Notes under the pieces: model-generated
The model's input: only the letters and a program-made list of their open reading frames with translations
Told to the model about the DNA's origin: nothing
Databases searched by the model: none
Assembly: GCF_012272835.1 (NCBI RefSeq)
Contig: NZ_JAAWWK010000002.1
Span: 649,451 to 713,450, forward strand
DNA: 64,000 nt
Direction of reading: 5' to 3'
Source of the DNA: Spongiibacter thalassae
GTDB taxonomy: Bacteria > Pseudomonadota > Gammaproteobacteria > Pseudomonadales > Spongiibacteraceae
Part shown: piece by piece, positions 112 to 10,642 of the stretch
Numbering within the stretch: the stretch's first letter is position 1
Layout: every line of letters starts with the position of its first letter
Program-made: the position numbers and the translations under genes

Positions 112-915
112 TTGCTCAAGTTAGTCGCGGTGGTCGGTGGAGACGAATTTTCGCTGAGCGGAACTGAGGTATCAGTGGGCCGGGAATCGGGTAATGATAT
201 TGTTATCCACCACGATCTGCTCTCGCGCAAACATGCCAGATTCACCATTAACGGTGGCGAGTGTGTGATCGAGGACCTCGGGTCTACCAACGGCACTTAT
301 GTCAACAACCGCCAGATTAGCCAGCCGGCTACCCTCAAAATCGGTGATGTGGTCAAATTCGGCAAGCAGGCCTTCTATCTCGCCGCCGACGACAACGAAC
401 AGCAAACCATTCTTGCATCGCGCTTGCCCCAGCTGTCCGCCTCGGATGGCGGCTGTGTGGTGATCGATGAACACGACGACCACACTTCATTTCAGCAGTC
501 CTACCATCTTCCCCAGGGGTGGGGAAACGATGTGCCGAGTCACGAGCGCTACTCGAAAGAGTCTGTAGACAAGTTGCTGAAAGGCATTCTTGCCTCCAAG
601 GGGCCGATTCCTGACCTCGCCATTATTGTCTATATCACCCAGCGCAAGCCTCAACTATTCGGTGTGTCGCGGACCAAGGGCGACGGCGTTTGGCCGATTG
701 GTCGCGAACAGGGCTGTAAAATACGGATTGATGACCCCAGCATTTCCAAACACCACGCCAATCTGACCTATAAAAATGGTATGTGGGGGCTGGAGGATGC
801 GGGCTCGACCAATGGAATCAGAGTCAACAATGAAATTCGCAGTGGAATGGCGATAAAGGACGGCGGGTTTGCCAAGTTGGGGCGCGCTGAAATATTGTTC
901 CGAACATTAAAATAA
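112..915 (+). CDS. Double FHA-domain phosphothreonine-binding protein
   Basis: A 267-residue soluble protein with two forkhead-associated domains, at about residues 15-95 and 180-267. Both show the FHA signature: GRESGNDI, then SRKHA, then GSTNGTYVNN in the first, and GREQGCKI, SKHHA, GSTNGIRVNN in the second. FHA domains bind phosphothreonine peptides; that these two bind the kinase encoded at 4940 is inferred from the neighbourhood. The reading frame is open further upstream to position 28, but the TTG at 112 has AGGGAGA five bases before it. It also starts right at the FHA fold (LKLVAVVGG) and lies downstream of the TATAAT at 33. No signal peptide or membrane segment is seen, so it is probably cytoplasmic. 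The caspase-like gene follows about 60 bases later. Confidence 0.85.
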   Translation: MLKLVAVVGGDEFSLSGTEVSVGRESGNDIVIHHDLLSRKHARFTINGGECVIEDLGSTNGTYVNNRQISQPATLKIGDVVKFGKQAFYLAADDNEQQTILASRLPQLSASDGGCVVIDEHDDHTSFQQSYHLPQGWGNDVPSHERYSKESVDKLLKGILASKGPIPDLAIIVYITQRKPQLFGVSRTKGDGVWPIGREQGCKIRIDDPSISKHHANLTYKNGMWGLEDAGSTNGIRVNNEIRSGMAIKDGGFAKLGRAEILFRTLK

Positions 916-978
916 TCTATCAGGCGGTGCTTGCCAGAGGCAGGAAGCCGGGCGACGCCGTGCAGAGGAGGCATCAGC

Positions 979-2706
979 ATGCGAGATAACTGTGGCTTGA
1001 ACCGTAGACCGACCGCTATAGGGGGGGGCAAGACCCTGCTGGCGCTGATAAGTGCCGCGCTGCTGGGTGCCTGTGCCGGGCCTCAGCAAGACAGCGCGGG
1101 CCTGCCGCCGGACAGTGAAGACATGATTGCTGGTCTGTATATCGTCGATTGTCTGTTGCCGGGACAGATTCGAAAACTGGGGGCAATGACCTACCAGACT
1201 CCGCGGCGACCGGTAAAAACCACGGCGGCAGACTGCAATATCCGCGGTGGTGAATACGTGGCCTATGATCGGGCAAATTATAAAACTGCGCTAAAGGTGT
1301 GGTTGCCCAGCGCGGAGGCCGGCGATCCCAAGGCTCAGGTCAGCGTTGGTGAAATTTTCGAAAATGGCCTTGGCACCGAACCCAACTATGAAATGGCGGC
1401 GTTCTGGTATGCCAAGGCCGCTGAGCAGGGCGACAAAACAGCCCAGTTCAATCTGGGCACGCTCTACGAGCAGGGCAAGGGCGTTGAGCAAAACAAGCTC
1501 AAGGCGCTGAATCTCTACCGTGAGGCCTGGGGGCTGCCCGAGGACAGTCTGATGTATCAAGCCACCGCACAGAAGGAACAGGAGGCCCTGCGCGCCAGTC
1601 TCGAGTCGCAACTCAAGTCCAAGGACGCCCAGCTCAAGCTGCTGGAGTCCCAGCTGCAATCACTGCGTTCCAAATTGAAAGCCGCCAAGGCCCGTGGCGC
1701 CAGCCCCGAGCTAGCTACCGCGGCTGACGAACTCAATACCTTGTCGGAACTTGTTACCACACTTAAAAATGACCGGGTTGCGGTTGCCGAGCAGCTCAGC
1801 GCGATTCCGAAACTGCGCACACCTGTGGCCAAGTTGAGAACGCCGGAGGCCGGGGTGAAGCAGCGTACCCCTGGCGTGTTTGAAGCCGCTTCCAGCGACG
1901 GTGTTGAAGTGGTGCGCGGCGAGTCATTGAGTTTTGAGGGAACGAACTTTGGCCGCTACTATGCGCTGGTCATTGGTAACCGTAATTATTCGGCACTGGA
2001 AGATTTGGAAACACCCTTCAATGACGCCCGGGAAATTGGCGCGGTGCTGGAGAACAAGTACGGCTTCACCGTGCAGCTGCTGCTGGACGCTGACCGTCTG
2101 ACGGTAATGCGCGCCCTGAACGAGCTACATGAGGTGCTCACCGAAGACGATAATTTGCTGATTTACTATGCAGGCCACGGCAGTCTGATCGATATCGGCG
2201 ACCGCAATGCGGGCTACTGGCTGCCGGTTAATGCCGATGCGCCACCGAACGACTCCCGTTGGGTGCCCAATGAATTTATCACCAATCACCTTGGCCGTAT
2301 GCAGGCGCGGCGCGTGCTGGTGATAGCCGATTCCTGTTATGGCGGTTTGCTGTCATCGTCCCCCGGTCACCTGTTCTTCGGCAATGCCGCCGGCGCAGAG
2401 GGAAGCAGCGAGTATATTCGCTATAAACTGCCGCGGCGCTCGCGCTTGCTGCTGTCTTCCGGTGGTGACAAGCCGGTTATCGACGGCGGCGGTGGCGGGC
2501 ACTCGGTCTTTGCCCGTGAACTCATCACCATTTTGGAAAACAATAGCCAGGTTATGTCAGCACCGGCGCTGTACGCCAATATTCGTCAGCCGGTAATGGC
2601 CCGTGCCGAGGCGAATAACTTCGTTCAGGAACCGGTTTACAAAAGCATTAAAGGCGCAGGACACGAGGTGGGTGATTTCTTCTTTGTGCCCAAGTCCAGT
2701 CAGTAG
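979..2706 (+). CDS. Caspase-family (C14) lipoprotein with Sel1 repeats
   Basis: A 575-residue predicted lipoprotein. The lipobox LGAC places the lipidated Cys at residue 32, after a hydrophobic signal segment. It is followed by Sel1-like repeats at about 95-185 (AFWYAKAAEQGDKTAQFNLG), a coiled-coil-rich Gln/Lys/Leu stretch at about 195-285 and a C-terminal caspase-fold domain at about 330-565. Both expected catalytic residues are visible: His400 in YAGHG and Cys453 in DSCYGG, so it should be an active cysteine peptidase. The ATG at 979 has AGAGGAGG just upstream; an in-frame TTG at 931 has no ribosome site. A run of eight G at 1021-1028 lies within the signal-peptide codons. Context suggests an envelope effector controlled by the FHA/kinase module; its substrate is unknown. 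Confidence 0.85.
   Translation: MRDNCGLNRRPTAIGGGKTLLALISAALLGACAGPQQDSAGLPPDSEDMIAGLYIVDCLLPGQIRKLGAMTYQTPRRPVKTTAADCNIRGGEYVAYDRANYKTALKVWLPSAEAGDPKAQVSVGEIFENGLGTEPNYEMAAFWYAKAAEQGDKTAQFNLGTLYEQGKGVEQNKLKALNLYREAWGLPEDSLMYQATAQKEQEALRASLESQLKSKDAQLKLLESQLQSLRSKLKAAKARGASPELATAADELNTLSELVTTLKNDRVAVAEQLSAIPKLRTPVAKLRTPEAGVKQRTPGVFEAASSDGVEVVRGESLSFEGTNFGRYYALVIGNRNYSALEDLETPFNDAREIGAVLENKYGFTVQLLLDADRLTVMRALNELHEVLTEDDNLLIYYAGHGSLIDIGDRNAGYWLPVNADAPPNDSRWVPNEFITNHLGRMQARRVLVIADSCYGGLLSSSPGHLFFGNAAGAEGSSEYIRYKLPRRSRLLLSSGGDKPVIDGGGGGHSVFARELITILENNSQVMSAPALYANIRQPVMARAEANNFVQEPVYKSIKGAGHEVGDFFFVPKSSQ
1021..1028 (+). repeat. G8 homopolymer inside the lipoprotein signal-peptide coding region
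   Basis: Eight consecutive G residues encode part of GGGK at residues 15-18 of the caspase-like lipoprotein. As written, the frame is intact through the lipobox. Runs of this length can slip during replication, and a one-base change would abolish the protein. Whether it varies in this organism cannot be told from one sequence. Confidence 0.6.
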
Positions 2707-2774
2707 AATTTAACCATTGACCGTCAACGGTCTATATAACAACGAATAGAGCATACGGATTTGAGAGGGGATAA

Positions 2775-4076
2775 ATGGTGAAAATACCAAGTGTAATGGG
2801 AAATCGGCTCATTCTTGTCGCGGCAACAGCGCTGTTGCTGGGAACGGCAGGTACTGCAGCGGCGGAGACGAACTGCGATGGTTCCAGCAGCGGTGGCGGT
2901 GGTACAGACAACGGCGGCAACGACGGTGGGGGTACGCCGCCCACCGGTGCGACCGGTGACGATGGTTTCAGCAGTACTGCCTCGGATTCCGAGTTTTCGA
3001 CGACCCGCGCCGAGGAGGGGGAGTTCTCGGAAGGTGGCGACGAGTGTAGCCCCAGTGCCAGTGAAACCACTACCAGCCAGACCAAGGATGTGGCGGTTGG
3101 CGTGCTCACCAAGATCAATAATCAGCGAGCCAGTGCGCGCCGGGGCAATACCTCGAAGGGCAGCAAGCGTCGGCGTAGCGATGCCGGAGCCCTGTCCTAT
3201 GGAGGCGCGGCGTCCGGCGACGAAGCTGAGGGCAGTCTCAGTGGTTTAAGCCCGTGGTCGCTGTTCGCCTTTGACGATATGACCGAGCGCGACCGCGAGG
3301 CCACCGTGAAAGGCGGCGGTTTCGAGCAGAGTGGCAATACCTTTGCGCTGGGTTTTGACTACCGTGTCGACCCGGATACCTACGCGGGGATGTCGGTAAC
3401 GGTAGTTGATAGCGAGACCGACTTCGATAACAACGGCGGCTCCAGCGAGTTGGGAGTGTGGCTGCTGGGTGTGCACGGTGCCAAGTATTGGGATGAAGTG
3501 TCCCTGTCCGGACTGGTCGCCTACGGCGATATGGACCTGGATATTGCAAGAAATCAGTCTGGTACCCGCTTTAACGGTGACACCGGCGGTGATTTTTTGA
3601 TGCTCGATATGAGTGTGTCCTACGAGTATAGCCACGGCAACGGAATGCGTCTGTCACCGAGTGTGCGACTCTTCCACCTCGGTGGTGAAGTTGATGCCTA
3701 CCGTGAGCAGGCGGTGGGCGCAGCGACGACCATTGATTATCGCGCCCAGGACCTGGAATCGACACTGGTCACCTTGTCGGTCACCGGTGATTACTCGCAA
3801 TTGATGGAGTGGGGTGTGCTGACGCCGACGGTGCGTTTTGATCTGGTTAACGACCTCAGTGACGCCAGCACAACGACAAGTCAAAGCAGCTTGACCGCTG
3901 CGGCGATCTCCAGTCAGTCTGATGACCCTGACGAATTGACGGCCAATATCAGTGCCGGGCTTGCCGCACAGTTCCGCGGCGGCCTGTCTGCCTACGCGAT
4001 GTACGAACAGCTGTTGGCCCACGACTATATGGAGCGGTATAGCGTGATTGTCGGGGTGCGCTACGAGCTGCCCTGA
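2775..4076 (+). CDS. Autotransporter-type outer-membrane beta-barrel protein
   Basis: A 433-residue protein with a signal peptide (hydrophobic residues about 10-28, cleavage near TAAAET). A short low-complexity region follows at about 30-140: first Gly/Ser/Asp/Thr-rich and acidic, then a basic patch (SKGSKRRRS). The remaining ~280 residues alternate polar and hydrophobic strands with a closing VGVRYEL strand, typical of the autotransporter beta-domain. Two Cys in the passenger region (ETNCDG and DECSPS) could form a disulfide. The chain ends in Pro rather than the Phe or Trp usual for outer-membrane barrels. No adhesin or enzyme passenger is seen, so it may be a pore or anchor rather than a secretor. 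The ATG follows GAGAGGGGAT. It lies between the caspase-like and hydrolase genes in the same direction. Confidence 0.75.
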   Translation: MVKIPSVMGNRLILVAATALLLGTAGTAAAETNCDGSSSGGGGTDNGGNDGGGTPPTGATGDDGFSSTASDSEFSTTRAEEGEFSEGGDECSPSASETTTSQTKDVAVGVLTKINNQRASARRGNTSKGSKRRRSDAGALSYGGAASGDEAEGSLSGLSPWSLFAFDDMTERDREATVKGGGFEQSGNTFALGFDYRVDPDTYAGMSVTVVDSETDFDNNGGSSELGVWLLGVHGAKYWDEVSLSGLVAYGDMDLDIARNQSGTRFNGDTGGDFLMLDMSVSYEYSHGNGMRLSPSVRLFHLGGEVDAYREQAVGAATTIDYRAQDLESTLVTLSVTGDYSQLMEWGVLTPTVRFDLVNDLSDASTTTSQSSLTAAAISSQSDDPDELTANISAGLAAQFRGGLSAYAMYEQLLAHDYMERYSVIVGVRYELP

Positions 4077-4079
4077 CCG

Positions 4080-4928
4080 GTGTTGCGGCCCCATCGCCGG
4101 AGAAGCCCGTACTGTTTATTAGTCGGGCTTTTTTGTTGGTTGAGCGCCTGCCAAAGTCCCCCGGCGGCGCTGAACTTGGCCAGGGATGCCAGATTGGCCG
4201 TCGCAGATCGCCAGGGTGAGGGCTTTACCCATCGGGTGATCGCGCCGTCGGAGCTATTGAACGGTGCGCGGCTGCAACAGCTAACCGTATTTATCGAAGG
4301 GGATGGGCGGCCCTGGCGTCATGGGCACTATATTGCGCGCCAACCTGATGGTCGGCAGCCCCTGGCGCTGAAATTAATGGTAGCCACCCCGCAACCGGCG
4401 CTTTATCTGGGGCGCCCCTGTTATCTTGGTCTGGCGGCATCGCCGGGTTGCAGTGAAAAATACTGGACCTCCCATCGCTATTCGGCGGAAGTAGTGGCCA
4501 GCATGGTTGCAGCGCTCAGGCACCTGCTCGCTGAGCTTGGCCAGCCCAATCTGCGTTTGGTGGGCTACAGTGGTGGCGGAGCGCTCGCGACCTTGATGGC
4601 CGCAAGTTTGCCTCGGGGCACCACAGTGGTGACCCTCGCGGGGAATCTGGATACGGAGTTGTGGAGCGAGCACCACCGTTATCTGCCTTTGAGCGGATCG
4701 CAAAACCCGCTTGCCAGTGCGGATATGACCCGTGTTCACCACTACCACTACGTTGGTGCGCAGGACGATAATGTACCACCGGCGTTGGCAACGCGTTTCA
4801 CCGCGGTCCACGGTGGTAGTTTGACTATAATTAACGATATCGATCACCGCTGTTGCTGGCTGGAACATTGGTCAGCGTCCATCAATCCGGAAACCTCGAC
4901 TGAGCCCGGTAGTATTAAAGCCAAGTAG
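4080..4928 (+). CDS. Alpha/beta-hydrolase fold lipoprotein
   Basis: About 282 residues. The N-terminus is basic, then hydrophobic, then WLSACQS, a good lipobox, so it is probably a lipoprotein. The nucleophile elbow GYSGGG (Ser near residue 164), a late Asp in GAQDDNVPP and a His in DIDHRCCW fit the Ser-Asp-His triad of alpha/beta hydrolases. The substrate cannot be told. Translation starts at GTG 4080 or the adjacent TTG 4083, three bases after the barrel gene stops, which suggests translational coupling. The kinase gene begins 11 bases after its stop. It belongs to the same transcription unit as the FHA, caspase-like and barrel genes. Confidence 0.75.
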   Translation: MLRPHRRRSPYCLLVGLFCWLSACQSPPAALNLARDARLAVADRQGEGFTHRVIAPSELLNGARLQQLTVFIEGDGRPWRHGHYIARQPDGRQPLALKLMVATPQPALYLGRPCYLGLAASPGCSEKYWTSHRYSAEVVASMVAALRHLLAELGQPNLRLVGYSGGGALATLMAASLPRGTTVVTLAGNLDTELWSEHHRYLPLSGSQNPLASADMTRVHHYHYVGAQDDNVPPALATRFTAVHGGSLTIINDIDHRCCWLEHWSASINPETSTEPGSIKAK

Positions 4929-4939
4929 CCTGGAAGCCC

Positions 4940-6550
4940 ATGAAAGACGACGATAAAACCATCAGCGACGATATTACCCGCATGGCCAATGACGATGAAA
5001 AAACCGCCGTCGATCCCGATGTCGTTGGCAGTGGCAGGCCTGATGATGGGGACGACGCCCAGCCGACGGTATTGGGCGGCGATGACATTACCCGGCTTGC
5101 GCCGGAGCCTTTCTCTACGGCAGACGAGAACACCGTCGCGGCAGATGAGGCGACAGAGGTTGGCGGCGCCGAGGATGGCACCGAGGTCGGTTTGGGCAGT
5201 ATCGAGGGCACCGAAGTCGCCGACGACGCCACCGCCGTTGTGCCCGGGGCGGGAAGTGTGCCGCTCACTACCGGGTCTGGAGGCACTCGTACCCAGCCGC
5301 CTGTGCCGGATACTTCGGCAGAGCTGGCACCAGGCTCGGTGCTGAAGGAACGTTTTCGTATTGAGAAACAGCTGGGCGAAGGGGGAATGGGGGCGGTCTA
5401 TCTCGCTACAGATCGACGCAAGGTTGAGACCCGACACCACGACCCAACCCTCGCGATCAAGGTGATCCGCGGTCAATTTGCCCGAGACTCACGGGCGTTT
5501 ATTGCGCTGCAGCGTGAAGCAGATAAGTCCCAGCGGCTGGCCCACCCGAATATCATCACTGTGTACGATTTCGACCGGGACGGCGATACCTTTTTCATGA
5601 CGATGGAGGCGTTGAAAGGAGGCACGCTGAGTGATGTGATTACCTCGTCAGCGGGGGCCTCCGAACAGACTCTGGAATGGATTTCCGATCTCGCCAAAGG
5701 TGTTGCCTACGCCCACCAGCGGGACATCGTGCACTCCGACCTGAAGCCGGATAACGTGTTTATAACCGATGACAAACGGCTGAAAATTCTCGATTTTGGT
5801 ATCGCCAGAGCGCTATCTAATGTCGAGGGGCGTGCGGGTTCCCGGGATGAGGTCGTGGGCTTGACCCCAGCCTACGCCAGCTGCGAAATGTTTGAGCGCG
5901 CCGATCCTCATCCCGCTGACGACGTTTATGCCATTGGTGTGATCGCGTATCAGGCTCTCACCGGGGAGCACCCCTTCGGCCGTAAAAAGTCGATTGTCGC
6001 GAGGGAAGAGGGGATGAAACCGGCGCGCATCAAGTCGCTGTCGGGTTATCAATGGCAGGCCATCGCCAAGGCACTGGCGTTTAATCGCGAGGACCGCTGG
6101 CAAGACGCCGACGAATTTTTGCGTAAATTCACCGGTCAGGGCCGCCGAGTGCGTCAATTGGCGATGGCGCTGCTGGTGGCGGTGCTGAGCTTTTCCGCTT
6201 ACCTGGCTCTTTACGAGGGACCAGTGGGGCCGGAAACGCCCTTTGAAGAGCTGCCCCTGGCCTTGCAGCAAGAGGTGTCCGGGGTGATTGCCGAGGCCCA
6301 TCAGGCGAAGAAATTTGGCGACTTGAATGGCTCGCTGTTCTATCTGGACAGGGCCTATGGGCTACATCCGCGCAATCTGGAAGTGATGGATCTGCTCGAC
6401 GATTTCCTCGATCAGGTTTTTGCGGCTATGGACTCGTCGCGAATGTCCCGGGCCCAGCGCCTCGCTCAGGTTGAGGAACTGTTGAAATACGAGTCGCTGT
6501 CGCAGAATCGTCGGTTAATCAAGGCTCGCAAGGAGCTGGGGGGCGGCTGA
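4940..6550 (+). CDS. Transmembrane Ser/Thr protein kinase with threonine-rich acidic N-terminal tail
   Basis: A 536-residue Hanks-type kinase. The domain spans about residues 139-396: glycine loop GEGGMG (146-151), Lys174 in AIKV, helix-C Glu193, catalytic HSDLKPDN (Asp267) and DFG at 285-287. Ser266 replaces the usual Arg, so this is a non-RD kinase. One membrane segment (about 406-424) precedes a ~110-residue part predicted to be outside the cytoplasm. Residues 1-135 are disordered-looking, acidic and Thr-rich, with DDITR twice (10-14, 48-52) and TEV three times (72, 81, 91). These are plausible autophosphorylation sites and FHA docking sites (inference). The partner PP2C phosphatase is encoded convergently only 32 bases away. 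This resembles PpkA/PppA/Fha threonine phosphorylation pathways, but no type VI secretion genes are in the window. Confidence 0.93.
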   Translation: MKDDDKTISDDITRMANDDEKTAVDPDVVGSGRPDDGDDAQPTVLGGDDITRLAPEPFSTADENTVAADEATEVGGAEDGTEVGLGSIEGTEVADDATAVVPGAGSVPLTTGSGGTRTQPPVPDTSAELAPGSVLKERFRIEKQLGEGGMGAVYLATDRRKVETRHHDPTLAIKVIRGQFARDSRAFIALQREADKSQRLAHPNIITVYDFDRDGDTFFMTMEALKGGTLSDVITSSAGASEQTLEWISDLAKGVAYAHQRDIVHSDLKPDNVFITDDKRLKILDFGIARALSNVEGRAGSRDEVVGLTPAYASCEMFERADPHPADDVYAIGVIAYQALTGEHPFGRKKSIVAREEGMKPARIKSLSGYQWQAIAKALAFNREDRWQDADEFLRKFTGQGRRVRQLAMALLVAVLSFSAYLALYEGPVGPETPFEELPLALQQEVSGVIAEAHQAKKFGDLNGSLFYLDRAYGLHPRNLEVMDLLDDFLDQVFAAMDSSRMSRAQRLAQVEELLKYESLSQNRRLIKARKELGGG

Positions 6551-6582
6551 CCACGGTGTGGGTGATCTCGGCGTGGCGGCCG

Positions 6583-7353
6583 TTAAAGGTAGCGGATCGA
6601 TCCATCTGCCCCTGCCACCGACACGGGGGCGGGGTGTTGTCCTGACTCCGGGGCGTTGTCGCCGGCGCATACCAGCACTGCAGTGATATTGTCACTGCCA
6701 CCTTTTTTAACAGCATAGGCAATCAGAAACTCGAGTTTCTTTTTGAGCGAGGCTTTGGCCGAGAGAATCTTGGCCATTTCAGCGCCGCTGAGAATGTCAT
6801 TCAAGCCGTCGCTGCATAACAGTAAATATTCGCCGCGGCCGAGGTTGCCGGTGATGCGGGGCACCTCGTCGGCCGGCAGGCGTCCGTGTCCCAAAGCCCG
6901 AGTGATGACATTGCGTTTGGTATGGTTTACGGCTTCTTCGGGTGAAATCTCTCCCTTGGCGATAAGGCCTTCAACGTAGGAGTGATCGCGGGTGAGCTGT
7001 TGCAATTCGCCCGTCCACAGGTAGGCGCGGCTGTCGCCGATCCAGGAAATCTGGTAGTGGTAGTCGTCCAGACTCGCGGCCACAACAGTAGAGCCCATAC
7101 CGCGTTTGTGAATGTCGCCGGTCGAGGCATTGCTGATATTGGTATTGGCGGCGCTGATCGCTTCGGCAAGGCTCTGACCGTCGTTGAGCAGCGAGGGCAC
7201 ACTGTCTGCGACGATTTGTGCGGCGACATCACCGGCTTCGGCGCCCCCCATGCCGTCGGCAACGAGAGCCAGTCCTTGCTGGGCATTGGCGACAAATCGG
7301 TCTTCGTTCTGTTTGCGCTTGCCTACATGGCTGCCGCCAACAATTTCAATCAT
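6583..7353 (-). CDS. PP2C-family Ser/Thr protein phosphatase
   Basis: A 256-residue single-domain PPM/PP2C phosphatase. Metal-binding and catalytic motifs are all present in order: NEDRF, VADGMGG, GSTVVAA, GDSRAYL, LTRDHSYV, CSDGLND and SDNITAVLV. It has no signal peptide or membrane segment, so it acts in the cytoplasm. It should remove phosphate from the kinase encoded at 4940 or its targets. The pairing is inferred from adjacency and is typical of bacterial Stk/Stp pairs. It is transcribed toward the kinase gene, so the two come from different promoters. It lies 92 bases downstream of cysK on the same strand. Confidence 0.93.
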   Translation of the reverse strand: MIEIVGGSHVGKRKQNEDRFVANAQQGLALVADGMGGAEAGDVAAQIVADSVPSLLNDGQSLAEAISAANTNISNASTGDIHKRGMGSTVVAASLDDYHYQISWIGDSRAYLWTGELQQLTRDHSYVEGLIAKGEISPEEAVNHTKRNVITRALGHGRLPADEVPRITGNLGRGEYLLLCSDGLNDILSGAEMAKILSAKASLKKKLEFLIAYAVKKGGSDNITAVLVCAGDNAPESGQHPAPVSVAGADGSIRYL

Positions 7354-7445: not shown

Positions 7446-8408
7446 CTAACCTTCAATGCTGCCAAAAGCTCCCTCAAATAGCGCGGTGCTTAAATAACGC
7501 TCGGCGGAATCCGGCAATATCGCCACGACGGTCTTGCCGGCGTTCTCCGGGCGGGCGGCAACACGTTCGGCAACCGCCATCGCTGCGCCACTGGAGATTC
7601 CCGCCAGTATGCCTTCTTCCTTCATCAGCCGGTGGGCCCAGGCGATGGCGTCGGCGTCGGCAACGCTCTCGACGTCATCGACCACAGCGAGGTTGAGGTT
7701 TTCGGGAAGAAATCCGGCGCCGATGCCCTGAATCTTATGGGGTGAGTGTTTGAGTTCGGTGCCGTGCAGGGCATTGCGGATCACGGTTGAGCTTTCGGGC
7801 TCCACCGCGATGGCCTGAATTTGTTTGTTTTGCTGGTGCTTGATGTATTCCGCGACGCCGGAAATGGTGCCTCCGGTGCCCACTCCCGCCACCAAAATGT
7901 CGATCTCCCCGTTAGTGTCGCGCCAGATCTCCGGGCCGGTGGTTTCACGGTGTATTGCGGGGTTGGCGGGATTGCTGAATTGCTGTGGCATAAAATAACG
8001 GTCCGGGTCGCGGTTTACCAGCTCGGTGGCGGCAGCAATGGCGCCTTTCATGCCCTTGGCACCTTCACTTAGCACCAGCCGGGCACCCAGTGCAATCAGG
8101 ACTTTGCGCCGCTCCATACTCATGGTATCGGGCATTGTCAGGGTAATGGGGTAACCCCGCGCGGCGGCGACAAAGGCCAGGGCGATACCGGTATTGCCGC
8201 TGGTGGGCTCGACAATTTCCATGCCGGCGCGCAGTTGACCGCTTTTCTCCGCTTGCCAGATCATATTGGCGCCGATGCGACACTTCACACTGTTGGCGGG
8301 GTTGCGAGACTCCTGTTTCAGCAGTATGCGGTGCTCGCTGATGCGGCGCACCGGAATGAGCGGGGTGTTGCCAATACTCAGACTAATGTCATCAAAGCAG
8401 TTTGTCAT
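7446..8408 (-). CDS. cysK: Cysteine synthase A (O-acetylserine sulfhydrylase)
   Basis: A 320-residue PLP enzyme that makes cysteine from O-acetylserine and sulfide. The PLP lysine lies in [13 protein letters not shown], the substrate loop is PTSGNTG and the phosphate-binding loop is [10 protein letters not shown]. The [18 protein letters not shown] stretch matches the E. coli CysK type rather than CysM. The end [15 protein letters not shown] is also CysK-like. Length fits the family. It is a stand-alone gene; no cys regulon neighbours are present. Confidence 0.95.
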
Positions 8409-8617
8409 AGATGTCTCCGTTGTGCTTGCACGCGTGATCGCGGGAGCTTACAGCATTTAAGGCCCAATCTTTGATAATATAGCTGGCTTGGGCCGCGCTT
8501 GCCGTAATCTGCGTAGACAAGTAGGCTTGTTTCTTTGCAATAGCCATCAGTGTAATGTTCGCCCCTGCGAATTCCTATAGAGGGAATTGTTCCGGGGCTA
8601 TTTATCAGGAACCATCA

Positions 8618-9463
8618 ATGAAATTTACCGGCACCGATTCATATGTATCCACCGACGACCTGAGTATGGCGGTAAATGCCGCCGTTACTTTGCAGCGCCC
8701 ACTGTTAATAAAAGGGGAACCCGGCACAGGTAAAACCCTGCTGGCTGAGCAAGTTGCGGCAGCAATGGGTAAAAAGCTGATCCAGTGGCATATCAAATCC
8801 ACGACCAAGGCTCAGCAGGGCCTGTATGAGTACGATGCGGTATCGCGTCTGCGCGACTCCCAGTTGGGCAATGACAAGGTTCACGACATCGGCAACTACA
8901 TCAAGCGCGGTAAACTGTGGGAGGCCTTTGCTGCCGACGAGCAGGTGGTGTTGCTGATCGATGAAATCGACAAGGCCGATATCGAGTTCCCCAACGACCT
9001 GCTGGTGGAATTGGATCGCATGGAGTTTTTTGTCTACGAGACAGGTGAGACCGTACGCGCCAAGCACCGCCCGATTATCATCATTACCAGTAACAACGAA
9101 AAGGAACTGCCCGACGCCTTTTTGCGCCGCTGTTTCTTCCACTTTATCAGTTTCCCTGATCGCGAGACGATGCAGAAAATCGTCGATGTTCACTATCCCT
9201 CGATTTCAAAAGATCTCGTACAGGAAGCCCTGGAAGTCTTTTTCGACGTGCGCCAGATTCCCGGCCTCAAGAAAAAGCCCTCGACCTCAGAGCTTATCGA
9301 TTGGCTGAAGTTGCTGATGGCCGATGAAATTCCCGGCGAAATTTTGAAAAACCGCGATGCCAGTAAGGCGATACCACCGCTGTATGGCGCGCTGCTGAAA
9401 AATGAACAGGACGTGCACCTGTTGGAGCGCCTCGCGTTTATGCATCGCCGAGAGAGCCGCTAG
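8618..9463 (+). CDS. MoxR-family AAA+ ATPase
   Basis: A 281-residue MoxR-type AAA+ ATPase with Walker A GEPGTGKT (33-40), Walker B LLIDEIDKAD (113-121), sensor 1 in ITSNNEKELP and arginine-finger region LRRCFF. MoxR proteins act as chaperones that remodel or load cofactors into partner complexes, usually with a VWA protein. The VWA gene starts three bases after this stop, so the pair is one operon, comparable to RavA-ViaA in E. coli. The ATG at 8618 has AGGA seven bases before it and begins the AAA+ domain; an in-frame upstream ATG at 8555 has no ribosome site. Confidence 0.93.
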   Translation: MKFTGTDSYVSTDDLSMAVNAAVTLQRPLLIKGEPGTGKTLLAEQVAAAMGKKLIQWHIKSTTKAQQGLYEYDAVSRLRDSQLGNDKVHDIGNYIKRGKLWEAFAADEQVVLLIDEIDKADIEFPNDLLVELDRMEFFVYETGETVRAKHRPIIIITSNNEKELPDAFLRRCFFHFISFPDRETMQKIVDVHYPSISKDLVQEALEVFFDVRQIPGLKKKPSTSELIDWLKLLMADEIPGEILKNRDASKAIPPLYGALLKNEQDVHLLERLAFMHRRESR

Positions 9464-9466
9464 TTT

Positions 9467-10642
9467 ATGCTTGTTCAGTTTTTTATGGGCCTGCGTAATG
9501 CAGGCGTGCCCGCGACCATCCGCGAACTGCTTGATCTGCTTGCAGGATTGGAAGCGCGTATCGCCTGCATGGACGTTGACGAATTTTATCAACTTGCCCG
9601 GGTATGTCTGGTTAAAGACGAAAAGTATTACGATCGCTTTGACAAGGCATTTGGGCACTACTTCAATGACCTGTCCACGCTGGATGACGTTATTGAGGCA
9701 CTGATTCCGGACGATTGGCTGCGCAGCGAGTTTCTCAAGCAGCTGACCGATGAGGAAAAGGCCAAAATCGAGTCTCTGGGTGGCCTGGACAAGTTAATCG
9801 AAAAATTCAAGGAGCGTCTGGAAGAACAGAAGGGGCGTCACGCGGGTGGCAATAAATGGATTGGCACCGGTGGTACTTCTCCTTTTGGCCACAGCGGCTA
9901 TCACCCGGAAGGCATCCGTATCGGCGGCGAAAGCCGCAATAAAAAGGCGGTGAAGGTCTGGGAAAAGCGGGACTTCAAGGATCTTGACGACTCGGTAGAG
10001 CTGGGTACTCGTAACATCAAAGTCGCACTGCGCCGACTGCGCAAATTCGCCCGCACCGGTGCCGCCGACGAGCTGGATATCGACGACACTATATCCTCAA
10101 CGGCCCGAAATGCCGGTTTGCTGGATTTAAAAATGGTGCCGGAGCGACACAATGCGGTAAAGGTGCTGTTGTTTTTTGATGTCGGCGGGTCGATGGACCC
10201 CCATATCAAGGTGTGCGAAGAACTGTTCTCTGCTGCTCGTACCGAGTTCAAGCATATGGAGTATTTTTACTTCCATAACTTTATTTACGAATCGGTCTGG
10301 GACGAGAATATTCGTCGCCACAACGAGCGAATTCAGCTGCTGGATATTCTGCACAAATACAGCGCCGACTATAAAGTGATTTTCGTCGGTGACGCGTCAA
10401 TGTCACCCTATGAAATTGCCCAGCCCGGCGGCAGTGTGGAGCACTGGAACGAAGAGGCCGGCGCGGTGTGGATGCAGCGTGTGCTCAATACCTTTGACAA
10501 GGTGGTGTGGCTCAACCCGGTGCCGCCCTCTGACTGGAGCTGGACCCACTCCATTCGCATGGTGGAGGAGTTGATGGAGCACAAAATGTATCCCATGACA
10601 CTCGGCGGTCTTGAGGAAGCGATGACCTTTCTCGCCAAGTAA
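9467..10642 (+). CDS. VWA-domain protein, CoxE-like partner of MoxR ATPase
   Basis: A 391-residue soluble protein. A helical N-terminal region (about 1-125, ending in a charged KEKFKERLEEQKGR-like segment) is followed by a linker and a von Willebrand A domain from about 230. The metal site reads D238-V-G-G-S242, so the canonical DxSxS has Gly in the middle position. This DVGGSMD form appears to be normal for the CoxE-like group. It is encoded directly after the MoxR ATPase and is expected to act as its adaptor. The target complex is not evident, as neither neighbour is an obvious oxidoreductase. Confidence 0.88.
   Translation: MLVQFFMGLRNAGVPATIRELLDLLAGLEARIACMDVDEFYQLARVCLVKDEKYYDRFDKAFGHYFNDLSTLDDVIEALIPDDWLRSEFLKQLTDEEKAKIESLGGLDKLIEKFKERLEEQKGRHAGGNKWIGTGGTSPFGHSGYHPEGIRIGGESRNKKAVKVWEKRDFKDLDDSVELGTRNIKVALRRLRKFARTGAADELDIDDTISSTARNAGLLDLKMVPERHNAVKVLLFFDVGGSMDPHIKVCEELFSAARTEFKHMEYFYFHNFIYESVWDENIRRHNERIQLLDILHKYSADYKVIFVGDASMSPYEIAQPGGSVEHWNEEAGAVWMQRVLNTFDKVVWLNPVPPSDWSWTHSIRMVEELMEHKMYPMTLGGLEEAMTFLAK

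Follow-up and report, generated by a model that had tools for sequence, protein, structure and literature searches.

A caspase-fold lipoprotein, an autotransporter barrel and a PpkA-like kinase encoded side by side in Spongiibacter thalassae: a candidate trans-envelope signalling module

The locus described here raises the question of why genes for a double FHA protein (FHA), a caspase-like lipoprotein (CASP), an autotransporter-type barrel (BARREL), an alpha/beta hydrolase with a lipobox (HYD) and a membrane kinase (PK) lie together in Spongiibacter thalassae. The window, i.e. the whole stretch of DNA analysed, was 64,000 nucleotides of a 4.4 Mb genome (G000:C6:649451-713450; position 1 is its first letter). 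The five genes are co-directional, occupy positions 112-6550 in the order given and are separated by 63, 68, 3 and 11 base pairs (bp); a convergent PP2C phosphatase gene follows PK after 32 bp. We consider the chances about even that the five products form one trans-envelope signalling unit of the kind known from the threonine phosphorylation pathway of the type VI secretion system (T6SS), here without a T6SS. Its support comes from the sequences: the genes stay together, they are inherited all or none within the genus, their products carry export and lipidation signals, the catalytic residues of the window proteins are intact, and in other lineages the module lies repeatedly near T6SS clusters.

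Conservation was assessed in 18 genomes of the genus (Zhongshania-like, G000-G017) and three of a sister genus; the nearest named relatives of the window by CASP were Zhongshania (Spongiibacteraceae). Orthologues of CASP (E <1e-230), BARREL, HYD and PK were all present in 12 of the 18 genus genomes and all absent from six (G006, G009 and G011-G014), where only weak matches to other kinases, Sel1 or caspase proteins were obtained. The five genes, FHA included, stood in the same order at a single site between a small membrane protein gene labelled 'DUF158' and cysK in 11 of the 18, which are also the 11 with an FHA orthologue. The twelfth module-bearing genome, G003, has a distant FHA paralogue adjoining the module and carries CASP-BARREL-HYD-PK, as do the three sister-genus genomes, at other sites. 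No module genes were found at the host site in the six module-less genomes: in G011-G014 a gap of 57-97 bp separates the matches to DUF158 and cysK, and in G006 and G009 DUF158 is followed by moxR, with cysK not at that site. PP2C was rejected as a core member, being alongside the cluster in two (G000 and G003) of the 12 module-bearing genus genomes, and the unit inherited in the genus, judged by gene content, is thus a cassette of five genes, not six.

Recurrence outside these genomes was examined by scanning named contigs with a CASP alignment. The best 80 of at least 419 tblastn-confirmed candidates were taken with flanks of up to 10 kb; seven (L075, L076, L078, L082, L093, L100 and L107) lie on contigs of relatives already examined and 73 are new. 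Partner profiles were built from window-like proteins and run at E 1e-8 without iteration, which changed the counts by at most one; PK matches may include unrelated kinases, and the FHA and PP2C profiles, having few seeds, probably undercount. Partner frames numbered 61 for BARREL, 39 for HYD and 47 for PK, and were within 5 kb of CASP at 59, 38 and 44 of the 80 loci, respectively (53, 33 and 39 of the 73 new). BARREL was both the commonest and the closest partner: 55 of its 61 matches fell within 1 kb of CASP, with a density that fell from 0.357 per kb in the first kilobase to 0 past 4 kb (∼603 kb available). One HYD and four PK matches were found beyond 4 kb. At least one of the five partners was present at all 43 loci with 5 kb or more on both sides. 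When CASPs were clustered at 70% identity and one locus was kept for each of the 62 clusters, at least one of BARREL, HYD and PK was present in 59, at least two in 36 and all three in 14. Some of the loci lie on contigs assigned to Acidobacteriota, Nitrospirota, Myxococcota and Thermodesulfobacteriota; these are mostly metagenome bins, and their labels may be wrong. By these sequence matches the module is a neighbouring gene set that recurs in Proteobacteria.

An original prediction, made from the sequence alone, had described an operon-like set of six genes linked in function. Pfam bore out the genes, domain identities and coordinates, and the shared order at one site and the short gaps agree with the operon-like arrangement; the place of PP2C in the set was lost. 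The functional link had been drawn from gene order and would have been refuted by homologues scattered in relatives; in the genus and at most of the 80 loci they are neighbours, and caspase, barrel and kinase co-occur above expectation.

T6SS genes were located within 10 kb of CASP in at least 11 of the 80 loci (L094, L101, L103, L104, L105, L106, L117, L118, L129, L131 and L147). Calls in L103, L105, L117 and L129 were checked with Pfam, those in other loci were made by sequence clustering and sequence reading, and one L131 frame checked by Pfam gave no match. Pfam identified DotU, IcmF and a TagF_N-PP2C fusion adjoining PK in L103, ImpA_N, VipA, VipB and Hcp in L117, VipB in L105, and T6SS_FHA_C and SciN in L129. 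The gene order is tssK-tssL-tssM-TagF/PP2C-PK-HYD-CASP in Nitrococcus (L103) and BARREL-HYD-CASP-PK-tssA-tssB-tssC-hcp in an Oceanospirillaceae contig (L117). A TagF-type sequence pattern was present in the PP2C frames of L094, L103 and L147 and not in that of L104, and in three T6SS-linked loci a TagF-PP2C gene adjoins the kinase. Across the kinase domain, hydrophobic segment and C-tail, the window PK shares 42.5-44% identity with the kinases of L101, L117 and L118.

A quick, unrooted CASP tree of 87 rows (the 80 loci and seven others), on which gain and loss are indistinguishable, required six changes for 12 T6SS-marked rows, at least four of them forced by starred branches. L122, nearly identical to L129 and on a contig that ends before any tss gene, was counted as T6SS-marked. 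Several marked branches lie just outside the window's clade, positions that fit an old T6SS tie followed by loss. Among 369 genomes of the class, CASP-type hits, accepted at E values up to 1e-40 and in some cases confined to the caspase domain, were obtained in 42, VipA in 69 and both in 19, with VipA in 50 of the 327 CASP-less genomes (odds ratio 4.6, Fisher p 2e-5, shared descent ignored). For a strict set of 27, chosen by hand from matches reaching the N-terminal block, VipA was present in 13 (p 2.7e-4, shared descent again ignored), and it was present in 24 of the 50 genomes behind named loci. On these sequence counts the association between module and T6SS is real but partial. The statement in the original prediction that no secretion genes lie here stood for the genus, in which the T6SS marker searched was absent, and fell for related loci. 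The PpkA-PppA-Fha comparison, which it had set aside, is now the best lead because T6SS genes occur so close to CASP in those relatives.

The T6SS threonine phosphorylation pathway of the Pseudomonas aeruginosa H1-T6SS (PpkA-PppA-Fha with TagQRST) resembles the module in combining a kinase with a hydrophobic segment and (in the module, by prediction) an outer tail, an FHA reader and an outer-membrane lipoprotein, and in the window also a neighbouring PP2C phosphatase, which adjoins the module in two of the 12 module-bearing genus genomes; to this are added the module relatives near tss genes and the TagF-PP2C gene beside the kinase. It differs in that no T6SS marker was found in the window genus and the FHA protein falls below the TagH cut-off. 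Unlike TagQRST, the envelope arm of the module consists of a caspase lipoprotein, an autotransporter barrel and a hydrolase. Passages of PMC11881912 state that outer-membrane damage acts via TagQRST-PpkA and attribute PpkA activation by envelope damage to an 'unknown signaling molecule'. Passages of PMC12607579 describe TssW of Acidovorax citrulli, whose gene lies between ppkA and fha; the protein, located in the outer membrane, determines where PpkA and the T6SS are placed. The passages also state that PpkA activates the T6SS constitutively in species without TagQRST. By analogy, constitutive activation is a possible reading also for the T6SS-linked relatives of the module. The same passages describe tssW as functionally uncharacterised, and 'caspase' is absent from the main text of that paper; TssW, unlike the window module, works with a T6SS. 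The likenesses to TagQRST and TssW are put forward as analogies of role.

Table 1. Coordinates of the module genes and flanking features in the window
Feature	Position	Strand	Description	Support
Upstream flank			dnaX, ybaB, recR, rnd, YcgN-like gene, small membrane protein 'DUF158'	Labels from sequence reading alone
FHA	112..915	+	Two FHA domains, phosphothreonine reader	267 residues, TTG start; Pfam double FHA 1e-38
CASP	979..2706	+	Lipoprotein, Sel1 repeats, coiled-coil-like stretch, C14 caspase domain	Pfam Sel1 + Peptidase_C14 (PF00656) 3e-20
BARREL	2775..4076	+	Type Va-like autotransporter	Pfam Autotransporter (PF03797) 3e-31
HYD	4080..4928	+	Alpha/beta hydrolase with lipobox	Pfam Abhydrolase_1 3.5e-6
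PK	4940..6550	+	Ser/Thr kinase: Thr-rich N-tail (4940-5335), kinase domain, hydrophobic segment, C-tail predicted periplasmic	Pfam Pkinase 8e-42
PP2C	6583..7353	-	PP2C phosphatase, convergent accessory	Pfam PP2C 1e-14
Downstream flank			cysK, moxR, CoxE-type vWA gene	

The catalytic residues of the window PK are intact (Lys174, HSD and DFG), and a hydrophobic segment at about residues 404-427 (6149-6220; mean hydropathy up to 2.1) is predicted to span the membrane. Among 44 distinct PKs whose glycine loop was recognised, 38 have such a segment (mean hydropathy of 1.8 or more) C-terminal to the kinase domain. The N-tails of 38 distinct PKs contain 139 D/E-(x)-T-x-V/I/L motifs, against a mean of 24 and a maximum of 47 in 1000 shuffles; these tails are mutually related and the excess is to be read as a pattern, not a probability. 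We take the acidic threonine motifs to resemble FHA docking sites. In one relative (G005:C1:2487546-2488247, in L040) the intact kinase gene is followed by a partial second copy of its C-terminal half, in which a stop interrupts the matched sequence.

The open frame of FHA extends to the window edge, and the TTG start at 112 that had been proposed for it fits the orthologues, which begin nearby. The protein scored 62.7 bits against TIGR03354 (TagH/Fha; NCBIfam cut-off 120.25), and Pfam returned FHA and Yop-YscD_cpl only, with T6SS_FHA_C not found. The closest sister-genus counterpart of the window FHA is encoded beside an ammonium transporter gene, apart from the kinase module (L067:1922-2740, L071:4587-5495 and L072:2595-3452). 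PP2C scored 209 bits against NF033484 (cut-off 230).

The best start of CASP is the ATG at 979, which gives a lipobox (LGAC), and the catalytic residues His400 (2176-2178) and Cys453 (2335-2337) are present. In an alignment of the 80 CASP relatives the N-terminal block has two Cys residues in 77 and gaps in three, and the catalytic His is kept in 80 and the Cys in 74. A hydrophobic N-terminal stretch was found in 34 of the 35 CASPs that have the N-terminal motif and no lipobox. Bacterial metacaspases and orthocaspases of family C14 share with CASP the caspase fold, the His-Cys dyad, Sel1 repeats in some members and the existence of inactive variants, as described in passages of PMC3501461 and PMC6426788. 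CASP differs in being exported, as predicted, and in usually having barrel, lipoprotein hydrolase or kinase neighbours; neither FHA nor autotransporter appears in the main text of the metacaspase operon survey (PMC3501461). No description of the module appears among the listed titles and abstract openings of open-licence literature on bacterial metacaspases or orthocaspases, autotransporters, FHA, PpkA and T6SS; in the one listed paper that mentions both a caspase family protein and type VI secretion, the caspase term stands once, as an item in a list of hydrolytic enzymes. Few physiological roles are known for bacterial caspase homologues.

One locus joins the two arms in a single frame. In L126 (contig titled Thermoanaerobaculia; 7653-9668, + strand) a kinase domain (residues 29-285), a hydrophobic segment (377-395) and a caspase domain (428-633) follow one another, and the frame adjoins a Sel1-caspase gene and an autotransporter barrel with Calx-beta repeats. 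It is the sole frame in the 80 loci to match both the kinase and the caspase profile. Should this segment cross the membrane, the caspase fold would occupy the position that the outer tail has in PK, an arrangement suggesting that kinase and caspase act together.

The BARREL model (AlphaFold2; mean predicted local distance difference test (pLDDT) score 71.6, barrel mostly >85) has a disordered stretch of ∼70 residues, a helix (residues 95-122), a basic linker and a 12-strand barrel. Its nearest folds in the PDB are the autotransporters EstA, AaaA, NalP, BrkA and EspP. The hydrophobic N-terminus and 12 long modelled strands agree with a type Va barrel with a signal peptide, and type Va autotransporters (EstA, NalP, EspP) share the 12-strand barrel and N-terminal helix. 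The window BARREL differs from them in the disordered residues before the helix and in a gene that travels with caspase and kinase genes; no folded secreted passenger was seen in its model, in which residues 19-90 have pLDDT <50. A second autotransporter barrel lies just upstream of CASP in two of the three sister-genus genomes (L037:7806-8960 and L045:8058-9203, both on the - strand). For HYD, the triad Ser164 (4569-4571), Asp229 and His256 is invariant in 25 aligned sequences and the lipobox Cys is kept in at least 90% of them. The HYD model (pLDDT 91.3) has a generic serine-hydrolase fold; assignment of a function from structure was rejected, with TM-scores of ∼0.5 to generic serine-hydrolase folds singling out no specific enzyme.

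In the mechanism that we propose, BARREL would display a lineage-variable passenger and anchor the complex in the outer membrane. Lipid-anchored CASP, with its Sel1 repeats in the periplasm, and lipid-anchored HYD would sense outer-membrane damage or change, perhaps via cleavage after Arg or Lys in the basic linker of the barrel; CASP may cut that linker, PK or another target, or act as a scaffold. The periplasmic tail of PK would thereby be altered, and PK would cluster and autophosphorylate its Thr-rich cytoplasmic tail at the D/E-(x)-T-x-V/I/L repeats. The double FHA protein would dock on the phosphorylated tail, and PP2C, encoded alongside or elsewhere, would reset the system. The output would be T6SS assembly in T6SS-bearing relatives and a different one in the window genus, with CASP, BARREL and HYD filling, by analogy, the role of TagQRST in Pseudomonas. 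More tentatively, and at less than even chances, the module may represent a new family of envelope-damage sensors in which an outer-membrane caspase fold, a variable autotransporter and a lipoprotein hydrolase gate a PpkA-type kinase, serving as a T6SS trigger in several lineages and kept without a T6SS elsewhere, including the window genus.

Several observations weigh against a trans-envelope relay of this type. The T6SS marker PF05591, a single marker, was found in 0/18 genus and 0/3 sister-genus genomes, so that the output must differ there or the T6SS link may be secondary; to the same effect, VipA was not found in 26 of the 50 module genomes examined, some of them draft, nor in the L126 genome. 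FHA and PP2C lie within 5 kb of CASP at 9 and 6 of the 80 loci by their few-seed profiles, and at 3 of the 73 new loci (L137, L139 and L152, of which two are short contigs) neither BARREL nor HYD nor PK is found within that distance. The lipobox pattern was found in 38 to 42 of the 80 CASPs, according to the stretch searched. Partner order and strand vary between loci, with no universal operon, which also suggests that selection has kept the genes associated, more than that one arrangement was recently inherited from a common ancestor. The idea of a polybasic caspase site shared by the barrels was rejected, the window KRRR not being conserved among 14 aligned proteins. Six of the 80 caspases (L102, L104, L110, L113, L126 and L136) have A, L, T or V in place of the catalytic Cys, which argues against essential proteolysis. 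Each of these six loci retains at least one of barrel, hydrolase and kinase. In sequence terms the Cys-less caspases favour a non-proteolytic role in some lineages at least, and together with the kinase-caspase fusion they suggest that the caspase fold can serve as a signalling domain.

It is unlikely, though worth serious weight, that the genes instead encode a surface-protein maturation unit, in which the caspase lipoprotein trims or releases the autotransporter passenger, HYD modifies either lipid or that passenger, and the kinase has a regulatory part only. The standing of BARREL as the commonest and closest partner of CASP favours it. The region preceding the barrel is short and disordered in some proteins and in others several hundred residues long, containing Ig-like, Calx-beta, TSP3 or InlB-type repeats (repeat domains precede the barrel in L126 and L102), and a helix and a linker, basic in most and not all, precede it in 14 aligned Spongiibacteraceae-type proteins. 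Passages of PMC6426788 report that orthocaspases cleave after basic residues. Against maturation, the six Cys-less caspases have retained their partners, L126 fuses the caspase with the kinase and not with the barrel, and PK and CASP occur without a barrel in the stretch examined at some loci (e.g. L103, L083 and L130).

A defence or programmed-death module is improbable; in it, a signal such as phage or envelope attack would set off either a caspase effector that kills or incapacitates the cell or a kinase that aborts phage growth. Caspase folds and kinases are common in immune modules, presence and absence vary at one site in the genus, and PADLOC matches, judged without system cut-offs, linked PK to PD-T4-6 kinase models (best E 1.2e-62, kinase domain only) and CASP to a caspase model (1.1e-6). 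However, PK also matched mad6, C3a189, MkoA, PglW and others through its kinase domain only, with no single system indicated, and scored 142.5 bits against the MAD6 NCBIfam model (cut-off 460); these matches were not taken to identify a known defence system. The predicted export signal of CASP should keep it from cytoplasmic targets. The genus cassette stands between housekeeping genes, and its G+C content (0.56-0.60, against 0.52-0.61 across the surrounding 18 kb) gives no compositional sign of recent import. The sequence results do not show the proteolysis or defence output first suggested for the locus. That separate envelope and signalling genes share a site by chance, as variable order, strand and membership in distant loci might indicate, is very improbable in view of the all-or-none inheritance in the genus, the steep decay with distance over the 80 loci and the recurrence in 59 of 62 clusters.

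Scans of the window for consensus promoters (4, against 3.6 in shuffles, standard deviation 2.0) and terminators (11, against 7.4, standard deviation 2.8) gave counts near those of shuffled sequence. Downstream of the cassette lies a pair of genes for a MoxR ATPase and a CoxE-type vWA protein (8555-10642), 80-96% identical in relatives where seen and kept in position with or without the cassette.

The signalling module proposed here probably informs the cell interior of what happens at the surface. The recurring combination of a caspase fold, an autotransporter and a PpkA-like kinase, with or without a T6SS, makes the roles of bacterial caspases and the activation of PpkA testable in marine bacteria.

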